Of a stretch of 64,000 nucleotides of DNA, positions 27,150-62,531 are shown piece by piece (the first letter of the stretch is position 1; the number at the start of each line of letters is the position of its first letter). The notes beneath the pieces are model-generated. The model was not told the DNA's origin, did no database searches, and saw only the letters and a list, made by a program, of their open reading frames with translations. A program made the translations under genes and the position numbers. The DNA is from Chloroflexota bacterium (GTDB taxonomy: Bacteria; Chloroflexota; Anaerolineae; Anaerolineales; Villigracilaceae). The stretch spans positions 62,001 to 126,000 of the forward strand of contig JACRBN010000024.1 of the NCBI GenBank assembly GCA_016213105.1. The letters run 5' to 3'.

Positions 27150-27297
27150 GGTTGCTCCTTTTATATCACGTGAAGATAGGAGCATTGTAAGAGTTTCATC
27201 CCGCGCGCGCATCGGGCGAATGGGGGGGAGGGGGGACCAGTCGTTTGGGGAGGGAAGGTTGAAGGTCGAAGGGCACGGGGTAACCCTTGCTGAACCA

Positions 27298-27882
27298 CTA
27301 CCGTGAAGTGTCTGAAGCCTTTCTTTGCTTAAGCTTCTCGTATTCCATGGCCAATTCATTCAAGTCGGCATCGTTTTGTGCGTTGCCATCATTGTTGTTT
27401 CTTCTGTAGACTTTATTGAATCTCGCCATGACAATCTTGGGATTCATTTCAGGGTGACTGACTTGTAGATGGACAAATAGGACGTTGTATTCTGTTTTGT
27501 GTTGGCAGAAGGGGCACTTTACAAGCTTATCTTGCCTCAACTCGTATTCATCCCTGAAAGTTATATTCTCTTTTGAGGAATGTTTTTTTGCGCTCCCTGG
27601 GATTTTCTTTTTTTGAGAACCCTTGAATTTGTTTGGTGCTGGAATGTTATTGTGCTTTGCATTTTTTCGATAAGGTAGCGGGGCTGTCCCTAATCTTTCA
27701 TAGAGACTAGATTGTTGCTCCTCTTGTAATAAATCTGGGTTAATCAGAATACCACTCTCATCAATTACGTGTTTATTTATTTCATTGCTTATATTCGTGT
27801 TGTGGATTTCCAAACCATCCAGTATTGGTATGGGTTTATTTATAGAATCTTGCAGAGGTTTGTTGTCAGCATTATCTGTCAT
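27298..27882 (-). CDS. Zinc-finger-containing protein of unknown function in AT-rich island
   Basis: The ~194-residue protein has an Asn/Asp-rich disordered N-terminal half, a Lys-rich stretch (FKGSQKKKIPGSAKKHSSK), and then a C2H2-type motif, CPFCQHKTEYNVLFVHLQVSH. A Lys-rich coiled tail ends it. The motif suggests nucleic-acid binding. I do not recognise the family. CGGAGAT lies 3 bases before ATG 27882; longer starts at 27915 and 27936 lack such a site. It lies downstream of the TIR-like gene on the same strand and shares its low GC content. Confidence 0.6.
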   Translation of the reverse strand: MTDNADNKPLQDSINKPIPILDGLEIHNTNISNEINKHVIDESGILINPDLLQEEQQSSLYERLGTAPLPYRKNAKHNNIPAPNKFKGSQKKKIPGSAKKHSSKENITFRDEYELRQDKLVKCPFCQHKTEYNVLFVHLQVSHPEMNPKIVMARFNKVYRRNNNDGNAQNDADLNELAMEYEKLKQRKASDTSR

Positions 27883-28076
27883 TTTATCTCCGATTGATAA
27901 GCTCAATTGAGACATATTTATGGCAACGCTTCGCACGCAATCCCGTTATTATCCTCGTCTATTTTGTGGACGTCGCTGGTGCCAACTGAAACGCAGTAAT
28001 TGGAGCAGGGCAGTACCGTGGGCCGAGGGCGAGGATAGCAGACATGAGGGAGAGACGGCTGAACCTTGTTCTATTT

Positions 28077-29012
28077 TCATTTGCTGTCAGATTGCTCTAG
28101 AACACCTTTGATTGTTAAAGCTAAATCGCTCTCAAATTTCACCATTCCAGGAGGCGTGTAAGCATATTGAATATACCGTATATGTTTTAGGTCAAAGGGG
28201 ACGTCTTCAGGATTCTGGGTAATAAGTATTACTGGTCTGCCCATGGCATGGGCTAACCCAATTTCGTAAAAAACATTCGGGTTTTTGTTTGTACAGTCAG
28301 CAACAATAATAGTCGCTTGCGCAATAGCAGAATATATCTCATTCATGATCGACTGTTCGGAAAAGAAATCGTCAGCACGCGCAACAGTAAGGCCGAGAGA
28401 ATTTGATACATTTTTTATATGATCATGATAAATAGGATTAAGCCCTTGTGAAAATGGCATTAGGATAAACAAGTCATACGTGTATTTTTCGTCAGGTTCG
28501 CCGAAGATTGTTTTAGCGAATTTGACTATCCAGTTTCTAGGCCTTCCTCTGGGGACAACGATAACACCAGAAATTTCCATAATATCAATAATAACTTTTG
28601 TTATAACATCAAAAGATTTTTTGTTGGATGGTATTTCAGTAATTTTTATTATTTGCTCTTTTAGTCGTCGGTATTCTACGGAACTGTTGCGTTCAAGATA
28701 AAGCATTATTTTCTTGAAATAGTCAACATCTTTAATGATAGCGGCCCAGGTTTTAGCGAGTTCGGAATCGTTGTTGTCGTGTATAGCTTTTCCGAGCTTT
28801 TTTCCTATTGGAGTTAAGATATATTTGCCTTTATCGCCATCTAGCACACCGATATATTTGAGGAAATTTGTATTCGAAGAAACAGAAGCATAAGCAAGAT
28901 CGTGACCTTTTGCTAATACAACAGAATCGATAATAGTACCTTCTACATAAAAGGCATGAATAATGGACTGTATTTCTGGATATGATTTCTTAGGAACGGG
29001 AAAGGTTTCCAT
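28077..29012 (-). CDS. Winged-helix plus TIR-like/nucleoside deoxyribosyltransferase-like protein
   Basis: The 311-residue protein has an N-terminal helical region (~1-180) with a winged-helix-like stretch (YASVSSNTNFLKYIGVLDGD...YILTPIGKKLG). The C-terminal domain (~185-300) carries FILMPFSQGLNPIYHDHI, RADDFF, ATIIVADCTNKNPNVFYEIG, LAHAMGRPVILITQ and PFDLKHIRYIQY. The NPNVFYEiGlAHA stretch resembles the family of TIR/nucleoside deoxyribosyltransferase-like NAD- or nucleotide-processing domains found in defence proteins. The Glu in FYEIG is the likely catalytic residue. A defence or stress role is inference. AGGAA precedes the ATG. Strongly AT-rich compared with neighbours. Confidence 0.65.
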   Translation of the reverse strand: METFPVPKKSYPEIQSIIHAFYVEGTIIDSVVLAKGHDLAYASVSSNTNFLKYIGVLDGDKGKYILTPIGKKLGKAIHDNNDSELAKTWAAIIKDVDYFKKIMLYLERNSSVEYRRLKEQIIKITEIPSNKKSFDVITKVIIDIMEISGVIVVPRGRPRNWIVKFAKTIFGEPDEKYTYDLFILMPFSQGLNPIYHDHIKNVSNSLGLTVARADDFFSEQSIMNEIYSAIAQATIIVADCTNKNPNVFYEIGLAHAMGRPVILITQNPEDVPFDLKHIRYIQYAYTPPGMVKFESDLALTIKGVLEQSDSK

Positions 29013-29396
29013 TGTTTTTTCCTATGTGCGCTGGGATGTTATTTCAGGCTCAAATCATAGTCAAATAATTTATTAGTTCCTTAAATGGAGAGTCTCTCGG
29101 CCGTAAATATTCAGAATGGACAGTCCAATCATTATGATTGGAAAATCGCTAAAATTCCCAATGCGTTTCTAAAGCCTTTCGTAAGTCAACTTTTCCATGC
29201 GTCTTGAAGAGATTGTACACTTGATTTCATCGTTTGCAAATATCAAAGTCCCCATTTTGCATGATTAAAAGCCATACCGCCCAACCCCTTCGCTCCCTCC
29301 AAATCGCCACCTGATTGACGCGGCGCATGGCGCTTTGGAGGGCGGACCTGCCGTATAACCAGCCTTCTCGTGATATATTACCCCGCGAGGTGAACT
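29013..29396. other. Intergenic stretch, no gene seen
   Basis: It contains a small perfect hairpin (TCCAATCA at 29124-29131 with TGATTGGA at 29135-29142) and a longer imperfect one (CTCCAAATCGCCA near 29296 with TGGCGCTTTGGAG near 29328-29340). The right part returns to normal GC content, so the island boundary lies near 29250-29300. Confidence 0.5.
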
Positions 29397-29843
29397 ATGC
29401 GACCAAACAAAAGCAGACGAGCAATTCTGATGGCGGGCGTGGCGGGTTTGTCCACGCTGGGGACGATGGCGTGTTGGGAGGCGGCGAGGCTGCCGGGCGG
29501 GTTGGGGGAGTTGGCGGGAGAGCGCCTCGAATTTTCCCTATGGCAAGTGTTGGGACTCCTGGCGGTCGTGGCGCTGTTATGCCTGATGCTCTTTCTGCCG
29601 TTCGCCTTCGTGATCCACAATTGGGATGAGTCCCATTTTGGGCGGGAGGGGGCGCTGCGCTGGGTGCTCTTTGGGATCGTGCTCGGGTCGCTGGCGCAGC
29701 TGCGTCATTTTGTTCCCTGGGGTGGCGTGAAGGCGGGCTTTGGTTCCTTTTTCCTCGAGCAGCTGCTTAGCCTGGCGCTGGGGTTCGCGATGTATTCCAG
29801 CGCGTATTTTGTGGCGTTCAAGTTGGTGAAAAGAAGGCCGTGA
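29397..29843 (+). CDS. Small integral membrane protein, function unknown
   Basis: The 148-residue protein has a hydrophobic N-terminal segment and three further helices (WQVLGLLAVVALLCLMLFLPFAF; GALRWVLFGIVLGSLAQL; LLSLALGFAMYSSAYFVAFKL). Between helices it has HNWDESHFGREG, which might bind metal. GAGGTG lies before the ATG at 29397 and a TATATT box lies near 29372. I do not recognise the family. It borders the AT-rich island but has normal GC. Confidence 0.65.
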   Translation: MRPNKSRRAILMAGVAGLSTLGTMACWEAARLPGGLGELAGERLEFSLWQVLGLLAVVALLCLMLFLPFAFVIHNWDESHFGREGALRWVLFGIVLGSLAQLRHFVPWGGVKAGFGSFFLEQLLSLALGFAMYSSAYFVAFKLVKRRP

Positions 29844-29847
29844 GCAG

Positions 29848-29870
29848 GCCGCGGATTGGAAATCCGCGGC
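29848..29870. repeat. REP-type palindrome GCCGCGGATT
   Basis: GCCGCGGATT and AATCCGCGGC enclose GGA. The same palindrome with a GCA loop recurs at 30440-30462, and shorter relatives (GCGGATTTGCAATCCGC) occur near 38551-38569. Confidence 0.7.
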
Positions 29871-30117
29871 GAGCATTGATCATGGAAAATCCCTGAGTCT
29901 GTTGGATTTTGTGGTTGGAGTGTCTTTCGCGCAGACCGTCCACGAATAAACGAACAACTACTGTCCCAAATTCGAGCATTCGTGGCCCATTCGTGGATGG
30001 TATATAGCAACACCACAAATTCTGGTAGAACCAGGCAAATCCGCCGCGAGCTTCGAGAAGGACAGCCGAAACTAAAAATCCCCGCCATAGGGCAGGGATT
30101 TTTTGGTTGGGGGAGGG

Positions 30118-30372
30118 TTATTTGCGGCGGGTGAAGAGGCCGACGATGAAGAGCAGCACGATCGCGCCGAGGATGGCGACCAGCAGGCTGGGCAGGTTGA
30201 AGCCGGTCACGCCTGGGAAGCCGAAGAAGTTGACGATGTACCCGCCGAGGAAGGCGCCGATGATGCCGACGATGATGTTGGCGAGGGCGCCCATTTTGGC
30301 GTTCTTTTTCATGATGATGCTGGCGATCCAGCCTGCCAGCGCGCCGAAGATGATCCAGAGGATGAAATTCAT
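30118..30372 (-). CDS. GlsB/YeaQ/YmgE-family stress membrane protein
   Basis: The 84-residue protein is three hydrophobic helices with conserved Gly: WIIFGALAGWIASIIM, NIIVGIIGAFLGGYIVN and LLVAILGAIVLLFIVGLF. This is the transglycosylase-associated (Tag) family of small stress-linked inner-membrane proteins. AAAGGAG lies before the ATG at 30372. A terminator-like stem lies just after the stop in 30078-30103 (imperfect). Confidence 0.9.
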   Translation of the reverse strand: MNFILWIIFGALAGWIASIIMKKNAKMGALANIIVGIIGAFLGGYIVNFFGFPGVTGFNLPSLLVAILGAIVLLFIVGLFTRRK

Positions 30373-30439
30373 GAGAGTCTCCTTTTCTAAGTTGAGCGAT
30401 TTCGAAATTGTATCACTTTCGCCCTTTTGTTGGCTGGTT

Positions 30440-30462
30440 GCCGCGGATTGCAAATCCGCGGC
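30440..30462. repeat. REP-type palindrome GCCGCGGATT, second copy
   Basis: GCCGCGGATT and AATCCGCGGC enclose GCA. It lies directly before the tandem tRNA-Glu fragments. Confidence 0.7.
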
Positions 30463-30478
30463 GAGCACGGACTTTTTT

Positions 30479-30607
30479 CCCAGTGCCTCCACGGAGATTC
30501 GAATAGCATTCCCCCTGCGGGGACTACGGCCCTTCGACTGCGCCGCGAAGAACGCGCGGCTCCGCTCAGGGCGTAGAAAACAAAAAAGCCGCTTGCGCAG
30601 CTTTTTT
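30479..30607 (-). repeat. Tandem tRNA-Glu 3'-end unit 1 (outermost)
   Basis: The unit contains the last ~25 bases of tRNA-Glu (T-loop plus acceptor strand) and the following CTGGG. In place of the 5' T-stem it has an inserted GC hairpin (CCCCGCAGGGG-like). This copy also has an extra ~45-base GC palindrome (GAAGAACGCGCGGC). An imperfect AAGC-GC terminator hairpin with A/T runs ends it. Confidence 0.75.
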
Positions 30608-30694
30608 CCCAGTGCCTCCACGGAGATTCGAATAGCATCCCCCCCTGCGGGGACTCGGGTCTTAAATCAAAAAGCCGCTTATACAGCGGCTTTT
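30608..30694 (-). repeat. Tandem tRNA-Glu 3'-end unit 2
   Basis: Same layout as the neighbouring units, 87 bases long. Its terminator stem AAAAGCCGCT with AGCGGCTTTT is perfect. Confidence 0.75.
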
Positions 30695-30779
30695 CCCAGT
30701 GCCTCCACGGAGATTCGAATAGCATCCCCCCTGCGGGGACTCGGGTCTTAAACAAAAAAGCCGCTTGCGCAGCTTTTTT
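30695..30779 (-). repeat. Tandem tRNA-Glu 3'-end unit 3 (next to the gene)
   Basis: 85 bases long, same layout, ending at the intact tRNA. The CCCAGTGCC start word is shared by all units and by the intact gene. Confidence 0.75.
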
Positions 30780-30784
30780 CCCAG

Positions 30785-30857
30785 TGCCTCCACGGAGATT
30801 CGAACTCCGGTCTTAACCTTGAAAGGGTTGCGTCCTGGGCCTCTAGACGATGGAGGC
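30785..30857 (-). tRNA. tRNA-Glu (anticodon TTC)
   Basis: The 73-base gene on the minus strand has a 7-bp acceptor stem GCCTCCA/TGGAGGC, a CTTTCAA anticodon loop and the T-arm GGAG-TTCGAAT-CTCC. The anticodon TTC reads Glu codons. CCA is not encoded. A TTGACG-17-TACAAT promoter lies just upstream. Three truncated copies of its 3' end follow downstream. Confidence 0.95.
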
Positions 30858-38689: not shown

Positions 38690-41566
<2,877 letters not shown>

Positions 41567-59926: not shown

Positions 59927-60008
59927 ATCGGTCAGGGCGCATCAGTCTCCATAACTCTCCACTTGCCCACCAGGGTTGTACAATGGAAATAAAAACAGCG
60001 GAGAACAA

Positions 60009-62531
60009 ATGAATTCCAACATCATCATTCGCAACGCCCGCCTGCACAACCTCAAAAACGTGACCCTTGAAATTCCCAAGAACCAGCTCGTCGTCATGAC
60101 GGGACTATCGGGATCGGGCAAGTCCACGCTGGCATTCGACATCCTGCACAAGGAAAGCCTGCGCCAGTTGTTCGAGTCCCTCGGCATCGTCACGGATGGA
60201 CTCGCCAAACCGCCCGTGGACTCCATCGTCGGCTTGTCACCCTCCATCAGCGTTGACCAGCACCTGACGAATCACAGTCCCCGCTCGACGGTTGGAACCG
60301 TCACCGAAGTCTTCACCTATCTGCGGGTTTTGTTCGCCCGTCTCGGTCATCGCCCCTGCCCAAAGTGTGGAAATGATGTCCCACCGCCCACCTACGAATC
60401 CGCCGACGAAAACTGGCAGGATGAATCCGACGAAAGCCCCGATGGTTCCTATCCCTGCCCGCATTGCGGCGCGGCTGTGCCTGAGATGGGCATGGCAAAC
60501 TTCTCGTTCAACAAGCCCGCGGGAGCCTGCCCGATCTGCACGGGCTTGGGCGTGGTCCGCCAGCCCATTGTCAGCCGCCTCGTGGACGAGAGCAAGAGCA
60601 TCCCAGAACTTCCCGTCGACGGCTGGATCGAGTTCCACGGTAACCACTACAGCCAGATCATGAAGAACGCGGGCAAGTATTTCGGTTTCGAGTTCGACAC
60701 GTCCAAACCCGTCAAGGATTTCACCCCCACCCAACGCGACCTCTTTTTGTACGGCAGCGACAGCCCGCAGTTCCGCCGCCACTATCCTAATGTCAAGCCA
60801 CCCGCCACCAACGCGCAGGGACGCTTCGAGGGCGTGGTCACCAACCTTCAGCGCCGCTACAACGAGCACGCCACCAACGCCGCCTATCTCGAAAAGCTGG
60901 AGCACCTCTTCACGACCCAGCCCTGCCTCGATTGCGAAGGCACGCGCCTGCGCCCCGAAAGCCGCGCCGTCACTGTGGCGGGCGAGACCATCATCAAGAT
61001 TTCGCACCTGCCGCTCAACGACCTCGACGCGTGGATCAAGTCCCTGCCGCCGCATTTCACCGCCGAGGAAATGCGCATCGCCCAATCGATTTTGGATGAC
61101 CTGTTCGAGCGCGTCGGGCGACTGCTGGAAGTGGGAGTCGGCTACCTGAGTTTGGAACGCTCCTCGCCGACTCTTTCTGCGGGCGAAGCCCAACGCCTGC
61201 GGCTGGCTGCCCTGCTCGGGTCTGGTCTGACGGGCGTGCTTTACATCCTCGACGAGCCGACGATTGGTCTGCACTCCCGCGACACCGCGAGGCTGATCAA
61301 CGTCATGCGCCGTCTGCGCGATTTGGGCAACACCGTGCTGGTGGTGGAGCACGACCTTGACCTGATCAAAGCCGCCGATTATCTGATCGACGTCGGACCT
61401 GGCGCTGGCAAGCACGGCGGACAGATCGTCGCGGCTGGCACGCCCGCCGAAGTGGCGCAAACGAAAGGCTCGCTGACGGGTGAGTTTCTCGCGGGGATCA
61501 CGTCCGTCCCGATCCCAGAACATCGCCGCGAACCCAATCACAAAGCGCTGATCATCAACGGGGCGCGCCAATTCAACCTGCACAACCTGACAGTGAAGAT
61601 TCCACTCGGGCTGTTGGTTGCCGTCACGGGCGTCTCAGGCTCGGGCAAGTCCTCGCTGATCTTTGACATCCTCGACCTCGCCGCGCGTCAAAAACTGAAC
61701 GGCGCGAACGAGATCCCAGGCGAACACGACTCCATCACGGGCTGGGATCATATCGACAAAGTCATCACCATCGACCAGGCGCACATCGGGCGCATCCCGC
61801 GCTCGAACGCCGCGACTTATTCCGACACGTTCACGCCCATCCGCGAGACCTTTGCCGCCACGCCCGAAGCCAAGAAGAATAAGATCACCGCGCGGCATTT
61901 CTCGTTCAACGTCCCAGGCGGACGCTGTGAACGCTGCGAAGGCGCGGGCACGTTGACGGTCAAGATGCACTTCCTGCCCGATGTTGAGGTGCGCTGTCCC
62001 GCCTGCCGCGGACGCCGCTTCAAGAAAGAAACTCTCGCCGTCAAGTATCGCGGCTACGATATTTCGCAGGTGCTGAACATGACAGTCGAAGAAGCGCTGG
62101 CTTTGTTCGCCGATGTCCCCGCCGCTCAATCCCGCCTGAAAGTGATGTCCGATGTCGGATTGGGCTACCTGCAACTCGGTCAGCCCGCGACAACTTTATC
62201 TGGCGGCGAAGCTCAGCGCGTCAAACTCGCCAAGGAACTCGGACGCCGCTCGACGGGTCGCACCCTCTACTTGCTCGACGAACCGACCACGGGTCTGCAT
62301 CCCGCTGACACCGTCCGCCTGCTCGAAGTCCTGCAAAGATTGGTGGACGCGGGCAACAGCGTCCTCGTCGTCGAACACAACCTCGATTTGGTCAAGGCAG
62401 CGGATTGGGTCATCGACCTCGGTCCCGAAGGCGGCATGGCAGGCGGTCAACTCCTCGCCCAAGGCACCCCCGAAGATGTGGCGAAGGTGAAGGGGTCGTA
62501 CACGGGTCAGTGTTTGATGGGGATGCTATAG
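60009..62531 (+). CDS. UvrA paralogue, class II (UvrA2) ABC ATPase
   Basis: The 840-residue protein has both UvrA ABC modules ([41 protein letters not shown]), signature LSAGEAQRLRLAAL and [18 protein letters not shown], and the zinc modules CPKCGNDVPPP...CPHCG and CERCEGAGTLTVKM. It is ~120 residues shorter than the class I protein at 38690 and the region between Walker A and signature 1 that binds UvrB is reduced. Class II UvrA proteins are linked to drug and DNA-damage tolerance. CGGAGAA lies before ATG 60009. Confidence 0.92.
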   Translation: MNSNIIIRNARLHNLKNVTLEIPKNQLVVMTGLSGSGKSTLAFDILHKESLRQLFESLGIVTDGLAKPPVDSIVGLSPSISVDQHLTNHSPRSTVGTVTEVFTYLRVLFARLGHRPCPKCGNDVPPPTYESADENWQDESDESPDGSYPCPHCGAAVPEMGMANFSFNKPAGACPICTGLGVVRQPIVSRLVDESKSIPELPVDGWIEFHGNHYSQIMKNAGKYFGFEFDTSKPVKDFTPTQRDLFLYGSDSPQFRRHYPNVKPPATNAQGRFEGVVTNLQRRYNEHATNAAYLEKLEHLFTTQPCLDCEGTRLRPESRAVTVAGETIIKISHLPLNDLDAWIKSLPPHFTAEEMRIAQSILDDLFERVGRLLEVGVGYLSLERSSPTLSAGEAQRLRLAALLGSGLTGVLYILDEPTIGLHSRDTARLINVMRRLRDLGNTVLVVEHDLDLIKAADYLIDVGPGAGKHGGQIVAAGTPAEVAQTKGSLTGEFLAGITSVPIPEHRREPNHKALIINGARQFNLHNLTVKIPLGLLVAVTGVSGSGKSSLIFDILDLAARQKLNGANEIPGEHDSITGWDHIDKVITIDQAHIGRIPRSNAATYSDTFTPIRETFAATPEAKKNKITARHFSFNVPGGRCERCEGAGTLTVKMHFLPDVEVRCPACRGRRFKKETLAVKYRGYDISQVLNMTVEEALALFADVPAAQSRLKVMSDVGLGYLQLGQPATTLSGGEAQRVKLAKELGRRSTGRTLYLLDEPTTGLHPADTVRLLEVLQRLVDAGNSVLVVEHNLDLVKAADWVIDLGPEGGMAGGQLLAQGTPEDVAKVKGSYTGQCLMGML

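Follow-up and report, generated by a model that had tools for sequence, protein, structure and literature searches.

A predicted FokI-type DNA reader fused to a TIR/nucleoside-deoxyribosyltransferase-like domain at a variable, low-GC site in a Villigracilaceae genome

Introduction

Does a small AT-rich island in an otherwise GC-rich stretch of an Anaerolineales genome hold a defence module and, if so, is that module made of two genes or of one? The stretch, hereafter the window, comprises 64,000 nucleotides of a Chloroflexota bacterium of the Villigracilaceae (assembly GCA_016213105.1, contig JACRBN010000024.1, positions 62,001 to 126,000), and the island lies at 27298-29012. A preliminary description, made from the letters alone, saw here two same-strand, low-GC genes, one for a winged-helix/TIR-like protein and one for a zinc-finger protein, and suggested that the pair could be a compact module of DNA sensing or abortive infection. 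The two open reading frames (ORFs), here called genes A and B, were found where it had placed them, both on the minus strand with gene A upstream of gene B, and the GC content of the island is 0.389 against 0.598 in the remaining window; among 1246 overlapping sliding windows of equal size, those on the island itself counted, seven have a GC content as low or lower. The analysis points to one gene and not to two. Gene A is predicted to join a DNA reader of FokI type to a TIR/nucleoside-deoxyribosyltransferase (NDT)-like enzyme, and we put at an even chance the reading that it is a single-protein, DNA-triggered abortive-infection effector that cleaves nicotinamide adenine dinucleotide (NAD) or another nucleotide; gene B is probably an independent neighbour, an unrelated passenger of a variable segment.

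Architecture of gene A

28077 to 29012, minus strand: gene A, 311 amino acids, tandem winged-helix and TIR/NDT-like fusion (ORF, site resembling a ribosome-binding site, domain evidence)
28503 to 29012, minus strand: residues 1-170, tandem winged-helix module, predicted FokI/BspD6I-like DNA reader (AlphaFold2, Foldseek, VIA, family alignment)
28077 to 28490, minus strand: residues 175-311, TIR/NDT-like domain (model confidence, VIA, PADLOC)
28263 to 28265, minus strand: codon of E250, candidate catalytic glutamate in NPNVFYE (Rcl alignment, order-level conservation)

The ATG of gene A is preceded by AGGA. Its C-terminal half is confidently predicted, from sequence profiles and a structural model, to have the TIR/NDT fold with the glutamate expected of it. 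The PADLOC TIR effector profile PDLC00733, for which no curated cut-off is printed, matches gene A with an E-value of 1.3e-9, and the fold that goes with such a defence effector is predicted as well; Pfam PF05014 (nucleoside 2-deoxyribosyltransferase) matches at 3.4e-4 with 21.2 bits, under its curated cut-off of 28.8. Gene A has the predicted fold and the glutamate of this family and falls short of its score. Among the PHROGs, four families of unknown function match (E 8e-24 to 7e-6), together with a deoxyribosyltransferase family (E 3.7e-4). NCBIfam has no family for gene A, and Pfam PF13271 (DUF4062, the Swarozyc TIR-like NADase) gave no row for it at E ≤ 1. Comparison of the sequence with solved structures returned Rcl (E 0.0012), in which the glutamate of YELG, the catalytic one, aligns with E250 in the YEIG of gene A. 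Glutamate stands at this position in 20/20 rows of an alignment of order-level matches; NPNVFYE was one of the two patterns used to collect the viral relatives, and conservation of the motif among them is no evidence.

In a model built from 21 sequences, the predicted local distance difference test score (pLDDT) is mostly above 90 from about residue 181 onwards, falling lower at 211-230 and at the extreme end. A Foldseek search with this domain gave seven matches at E ≤ 0.001, to SARM1/TIR-1, a nucleoside deoxyribosyltransferase and a Hydra TIR domain. VIA superpositions included those on the Hydra TIR domain 4w8g (Z 15.1, 2.8 Å, 120 aligned residues), MilB 4ohr (Z 14.6, 2.6 Å, 128 aligned), the SPARTA TIR domain 8ifl (Z 14.6, 2.4 Å, 124 aligned), the SARM1 TIR domain 9mw2 (Z 14.6, 2.5 Å, 120 aligned) and DNPH1 8rpt (Z 14.0, 2.7 Å, 123 aligned). 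These matches span 1.1 Z where rows within 1 Z count as tied; TIR and NDT-type scores are tied, and the fold is therefore given as TIR/NDT, with no finer split. The TIR/deoxyribosyltransferase-like domain with NPNVFYE had been named in the preliminary description, which proposed a fold search as its check, and fold and glutamate both came out as it had anticipated.

The N-terminal half was of low confidence in the 21-sequence model, and a separate four-sequence model was used for it. AlphaFold2, given residues 1-173 of gene A and three relatives, returned two winged helices and helices joining them (pLDDT 85.4, predicted TM score 0.82), in agreement with the winged-helix N-terminus suggested earlier, two such domains now being predicted. 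On this model the half is predicted to form two winged helices in tandem, resembling the recognition parts of FokI and BspD6I. FokI has the highest query-normalised TM score among the 50 Foldseek matches listed (0.56, the next being 0.36). Among the 50 VIA matches listed, only Nt.BspD6I (three entries; 150-158 residues, 3.2-3.4 Å, Z 9.1-9.2) and FokI (169 residues, 4.0 Å, Z 9.1) span the whole module, most of the others being single winged helices with Z 9.1-10.4 that cover about residues 8-86. Gene A is predicted, in short, to have the two-winged-helix, FokI-like arrangement of a multi-winged-helix-turn-helix (multi-wHTH) protein, at a distance of 3.4-4.0 Å and in a model from four sequences.

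Other candidates for the N-terminal half led less far. Foldseek matches of its model to methyltransferases, to other proteins and to viral proteins were set aside, none reaching E 0.001. Pfam holds no well-matching family for this half, and a profile search of solved structures gave a weak FwdD row alone (E 0.29). DUF5343 (PF17278) gave no Pfam row, and hhalign of the reader alignment A2 against the genome's own DUF5343 protein was weak (28% probability, 66 columns). The gene for that protein lies at 156-563 of contig C6, at the contig end, and is the sole DUF5343 gene in 41 genomes searched.

A family of readers with a HEPN-like partner

Among 301 genomes of the order, 58 match gene A at E ≤ 0.001, and in G251 and G213 the match is confined to the N-terminal half. 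This order-level search located relatives of the module in G251, G262 and G213, the same three loci being returned by a profile scan of genome contigs, and a further one lies in G743. The module is a separate gene of 240-250 amino acids in all four of these genomes (the start of the G743 reader was picked by homology, its frame being open further upstream), and in all four it is followed, after gaps of 4-32 bp, by a gene for a HEPN-like protein of 319-321 amino acids. The cassettes lie in genomes of the window's class:

L036, 291 to 2015: reader-HEPN cassette, motif IRNAADHG
L037, 7402 to 9121: reader-HEPN cassette, same motif
L038, 8581 to 10295: reader-HEPN cassette, same motif
L137, 10669 to 12396: reader-HEPN cassette, same motif

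The partner carries KYLGHIRNAADHG, an R-x4-H motif, invariant in 4/4, and its match to DUF4145 is weak, under the cut-off in 4/4 (E 0.0019 to 0.13); DUF4145 is a HEPN family (PMC3710099). Like genes A and B, these pairs are of low GC content (0.388-0.414, against 0.539-0.562 in their flanks; 4/4). Neighbours were scanned at L037, L038 and L137: an AbiEii-type gene is close to one pair, an HNH gene to another, and two ORFs near the third gave TPR-type or weak rows.

That gene A belongs with these readers, in a small and as yet unnamed family, is indicated by a profile of the four stand-alone proteins, gene A excluded, which recovers gene A at E 1.1e-15, the next control ORF standing at 1.1. All 5/5 family members have S45 and N47 unchanged in the first recognition helix. 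What differs is the effector. No R-x4-H HEPN-like gene adjoins gene A, which is followed by gene B, and the TIR-like domain is part of the same protein. Effectors seem to have been swapped, a TIR-like enzyme being fused to the same reader in place of a HEPN partner, and gene A would then be the fused, TIR-type counterpart of a two-gene reader and HEPN-like module from the same class.

The HEPN protein itself matched in 0/56 genomes, the window's own included, in a search without a positive control. The N-terminal parts of the HEPN proteins were also considered as reader paralogues and found no support. In 72,556 plasmid records, the HEPN protein has one distant relative, on the Haladaptatus plasmid NZ_CP119793.1 (22.8% identity over 83%). 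At this locus (L138, 1910-6336) the motif reads R-x5-H, the gene lies behind one for a ResIII/XPB-type helicase, and a gene for a 501-amino-acid protein converges from the other side; by eye, the latter has repeated winged helices with a similar tail. Compared with the reader, it scores E 0.08 by profile and E 0.02 with a probability of 2% by hhalign, and we treat a relationship between the two as a lead and not as a result.

Relatives of the TIR/NDT-like domain

The TIR/NDT-like domain is common. Through it, gene A matches 53 of the 50,697 phage records and 87 of the 72,556 plasmid records, and in IMG/VR 104 of 136 pattern matches were confirmed, of which 80 were kept. For the N-terminal module, 80 pattern matches in viral contigs yielded no confirmed relative, and plasmids and phages gave none; patterns for gene A as a single protein gave 25 matches in genome contigs, with none confirmed. 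The TIR effector profile of PADLOC matches all nine domain relatives tested, taken from many more available (E 3e-13 to 6.5e-5). In ten relatives scanned with Pfam, the families above cut-off were FGE-sulfatase, DUF4062 (1.4e-24), Macro (1.4e-10), TPR and, in one relative, PF05014, and those under it an OmpR-type winged helix, NERD and DUF5919, one relative being without a match. The Macro fusion lies at L015, 1393-2604, and the DUF4062 fusion at L011, 1450-2547; judged from sequence, such fusions may be hints of NAD/ADP-ribose chemistry in the family. In about 12 IMG/VR contigs (among L054-L076), a protein of about 280 amino acids has, by eye, a shared N-terminal domain of its own with a MFNLIV-like start and a C-terminal TIR/NDT-like domain.

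TIR, DrHyd (NDT-like) and SLOG domains have been placed in a single clade, and those of its active members that have been characterised act on N-glycosidic bonds (PMC9503650). For DUF4062, which is a TIR-like relative, a preprint reports an NADase role in phage defence (PMC13174449).

Genomic setting

27255 to 30743, no strand: variable segment between the HtrA-type gene and tRNA-Glu (blastn of the sister-species locus L051 and ORFs of L051)
30784 to 30857, minus strand: tRNA-Glu, with its 3'-end sequence copied three extra times nearby

One flank of the island is a gene for an HtrA-type trypsin/PDZ protease, and the other a 148-amino-acid ORF without a Pfam assignment, together with tRNA-Glu. 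The housekeeping flanks of the preliminary description are in this respect roughly right. The sole other genome available for the window's genus, G233 of a sister species, keeps long syntenic flanks, with an HtrA-type gene 86% identical to that of the window and the same tRNA-Glu; between the two it has GAF-GGDEF and SpoIIAA-like genes in place of genes A and B, and gene A has no match in this genome. Since other genes occupy the same site in G233, the A/B site is variable.

A 25-base sequence from the 3' end of tRNA-Glu is repeated, with copies starting at 30479, 30608 and 30695, besides 30780, and the copies sit in an array of units of about 86 bp (about 30449-30857) with hairpin-like, AT-rich ends; in the sister species, blastn found one such place in the 19.9 kb compared. 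The copies are possible remnants of repeated integration at the tRNA, and the site fits a tRNA-side integration hot spot, although no integrase was seen. The spacer between the genes (27937-28076) has a GC content of 0.529, above that of the genes themselves; the idea that it is a mobile repeat was rejected, as it is single-copy in the genome.

Elsewhere in the window, a UvrA-type gene of 851 amino acids occupies 59976-62531. A stretch of the sister genome 89% identical to the 958-amino-acid ORF at 38690-41566 also matches this gene at 66%, and by sequence likeness the window probably holds two UvrA-like genes.

Gene B

27298 to 27882, minus strand: gene B, 194 amino acids (212 from a GTG at 27936), an ORF with one C2H2-type finger
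27442 to 27522, minus strand: C2H2-type finger (CPFC ... HLQVSH), zf-Di19 at residues 139-165 of the 212-residue frame

Gene B more likely starts at the ATG at 27882, which has GGAG in front and lies 194 bp from the end of gene A, than at the GTG. The C2H2-type finger ascribed to the downstream protein is present as a single CxxC-x12-H-x4-H, matched by Pfam zf-Di19 at E 7.1e-4, under its curated cut-off, and preceded by a basic, lysine-rich stretch. At E ≤ 0.01, gene B has matches in 4/301 order genomes, of which two are convincing, its own and G233 (E 4.8e-49); the other two, in G146 and G299 (E 0.004 and 0.01), contain internal stops and were set aside as chance. At E ≤ 0.001 in 298 sampled class genomes, evidently without G233, its own genome alone was returned. 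No convincing relative was seen in plasmids or viral contigs, and gene B with its homolog had no match among solved structures.

The homolog in G233 shares 85 of 165 aligned residues, the cysteines and histidines of the finger among them. Differences by codon position number 63, 34 and 95, a pattern that constraint on the protein would lead one to expect. The nonsynonymous divergence (dN) is 0.35, and synonymous change is saturated, which precludes a dN/dS ratio. These comparisons mark gene B as a real gene, restricted to the genus in the sets searched, and not as a conserved partner: in G233 the homolog is on a different contig, beside small genes without a Pfam match, with gene A absent. Its surroundings there (L035, 9041-10516) are of low GC content, and it follows two small, overlapping, Pfam-less genes, one of which appears membrane-like by eye. 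The preliminary description had made co-occurrence of the two genes elsewhere its own test of their pairing, and in the genomes examined that test fails.

Comparison with known systems

Considering the systems that gene A might be taken for, the TIR NADase effectors (TIR-STING of CBASS, the TIR-APAZ protein of SPARTA, SpbK and ThsB of Thoeris) have in common with it the fold, the position of the glutamate and the fusion of a sensor to an enzyme, with VIA scores for its domain of Z 13.3-14.6 on SPARTA chains and 13.8 on SfSTING; the predicted sensor of gene A differs from theirs in being a tandem winged helix. Pfam found no cyclase (CD-NTase), ThsA or Argonaute in the seven neighbouring ORFs scanned. 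Type II retron effectors, like gene A, bring together an NDT-like enzyme and a winged helix, whereas neither a reverse transcriptase nor a retron RNA was found beside gene A. The effector of Retron-Eco1 joins NDT-like and winged-helix parts in one protein, and retrons with these parts are the nearest named combination.

The NDT-like N-glycosidases (Rcl/DNPH1, MilB, deoxyribosyltransferases; 'DrHyd' in PMC9503650) resemble gene A in the sequence match to Rcl and in fold scores, and differ in that gene A is under the PF05014 cut-off, has a winged-helix N-terminus and lies in a variable, low-GC context. PMC10853773 puts the DNA-binding part of FokI in one group with the multi-wHTH modules found in DndG and SspB, and reports that defence operons contain rapidly evolving proteins of 2-4 wHTH domains related to these modules; structural homology of BrxA with the DNA-binding domains of FokI is described in PMC12839542. 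Gene A has predicted tandem winged helices in common with all of these, and its whole modelled module superposes on FokI and Nt.BspD6I, but it has two winged helices and not three, falls about 105 residues short of the FokI stretch that it matches, and lacks both the nuclease and a FokI_D1 sequence match. The reader and HEPN/DUF4145-like module has a homologous reader in a low-GC insert, the effector there being a separate HEPN-like gene and in gene A a fused TIR-like domain.

Exchange of effectors has been described elsewhere. According to Anantharaman et al. 2013 (PMC3710099), AbiJ-NTD1 is fused to a DUF4145 HEPN domain or to a nucleoside deoxyribosyltransferase, and AbiJ-NTD2, 3 and 5 to TIR. 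These fusions set a precedent for sensor-effector swapping and follow the same logic as gene A, whose N-terminal domain is instead a predicted tandem winged helix. Among the open-licence papers listed by literature searches, none describes a FokI-type tandem winged helix fused to TIR/NDT or a reader and HEPN pair, which does not imply that either is unpublished. The earlier remark that the module is 'not named in known systems' stands for the exact architecture, which is absent from the libraries searched, and not for its halves, both of which fall in known, defence-rich classes.

Proposed role and alternatives

A DNA-sensing or abortive-infection role is plausible for gene A. Computation supplies the ORFs, the predicted folds, the homologies, the conserved glutamate, the variable low-GC site and the pairing of reader and HEPN genes; from there we infer DNA binding, the enzyme activity and its substrate, the mode of activation and the defence role, as follows. 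The tandem winged-helix module would read some feature of foreign or damaged DNA; binding would assemble or free the TIR/NDT-like domain, which would use E250 to cut the N-glycosidic bond in NAD+ or in a different nucleotide; and this would halt the infected cell and so end the infection. A wider proposal is that gene A belongs to a family of low-GC defence cassettes with one FokI-type reader and an exchangeable killer, either a HEPN-like RNase encoded by a second gene, as in the four other genomes, or a fused TIR/NDT NADase, as here. We advance it tentatively and think it more doubtful than the role of gene A itself. It would take in, as an additional observation, the distant HEPN relative beside a possible multi-winged-helix protein on the haloarchaeal plasmid.

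Several results weigh against this account of gene A. The fused architecture was found only here, the window's own genome being the sole row that spans both halves in the 301 order genomes, and the N-terminal profile found two of 396 class genomes (its own and that of the stand-alone reader of G743, from another order) and its own alone among 400 sampled across the phylum. The neighbouring ORFs that were scanned include no recognised defence gene beside gene A. Nucleotide hydrolases with housekeeping roles also belong to the TIR/NDT clan, and their fold scores are as high. The N-terminal model was built on four sequences and the best of five stood apart (85.4 against 63.7-71.3); it has no Foldseek match at E 0.001, FokI coming at E 0.072 and rank 32, and the Z of FokI is equalled or exceeded, up to 10.4, by single winged helices, among them those of MarR type. 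The likeness to FokI is structural only: Pfam FokI_D1 (PF02981) did not match the five family members at an E limit of 10, where HMMER filters discard most matches above about 0.1, and the same profile had no match in 199 class genomes, a null that by the tool's own warning shows nothing. According to PMC11037411, moreover, the winged helix originally recognised in FokI seems to make no contact with DNA.

How else might gene A be explained? It might be metabolic or regulatory, a winged-helix regulator whose NDT/Rcl-like domain senses or hydrolyses salvage nucleotides. The weak PF05014 match (E 3.4e-4) and that to Rcl would suit such a protein, MilB and DNPH1 equal the TIR domains in fold closeness, and regulators commonly carry winged helices; we nevertheless think it unlikely, given that gene A is without a match in the sister species and sits at a variable, low-GC site, that the PADLOC TIR effector profile outscores PF05014, and that the domain has relatives in phage and plasmid records, in viral contigs and in Macro and DUF4062 fusions. 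That genes A and B form one two-gene system, in which the TIR-like enzyme has the zinc-finger protein as its sensor, antitoxin or regulator, we hold to be quite unlikely. They share a strand and a low GC content, lie 194 bp apart, and the finger is of a nucleic-acid-binding type. Against these stand the one clear relative of gene B, elsewhere in a genome without gene A, the relatives of the N-terminal module, which neighbour HEPN-like and not zinc-finger genes in 4/4, and the higher GC content of the spacer; the pairing drawn in the preliminary description is accordingly given up.

Two further explanations were considered. Winged helices fused to nucleases act as readers of N6-methyladenine (PMC11037411), and the module might likewise sense modified DNA, as the winged helices of type IV restriction enzymes do, which would make gene A a modification-dependent suicide effector. 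In its favour, no methyltransferase match was seen among the nearby ORFs scanned. The full-length fold match, however, is FokI/BspD6I, enzymes that read unmodified sequence, and we consider this explanation very unlikely. Least credible, and in our estimate highly improbable, is an orphan or degenerate effector of a type II retron, left with NDT and winged helix after loss of its reverse transcriptase and multicopy single-stranded DNA (msDNA). NDT-like and winged-helix parts do occur among retron operon genes (PMC12548924). Around gene A, however, Pfam gave no reverse transcriptase in seven neighbouring ORFs (23.7-33.4 kb, overlapping opposite-strand ORFs left out), Rfam, which may lack some msr families, found a tRNA alone and no retron RNA family in 24-33 kb, and the relatives of the N-terminal module precede HEPN-like genes and not reverse transcriptases.

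Significance

The reader and HEPN gene pair is a separate, unnamed module that can be looked for by itself. If the reading of gene A as a DNA-triggered effector is true, the DNA reading of restriction enzymes and the cell suicide of TIR NADases would be joined in one small protein, in which a restriction-enzyme-like reader would trigger suicide chemistry and not DNA cutting. Which feature of DNA triggers a TIR effector would then become a question answerable with a single purified protein.

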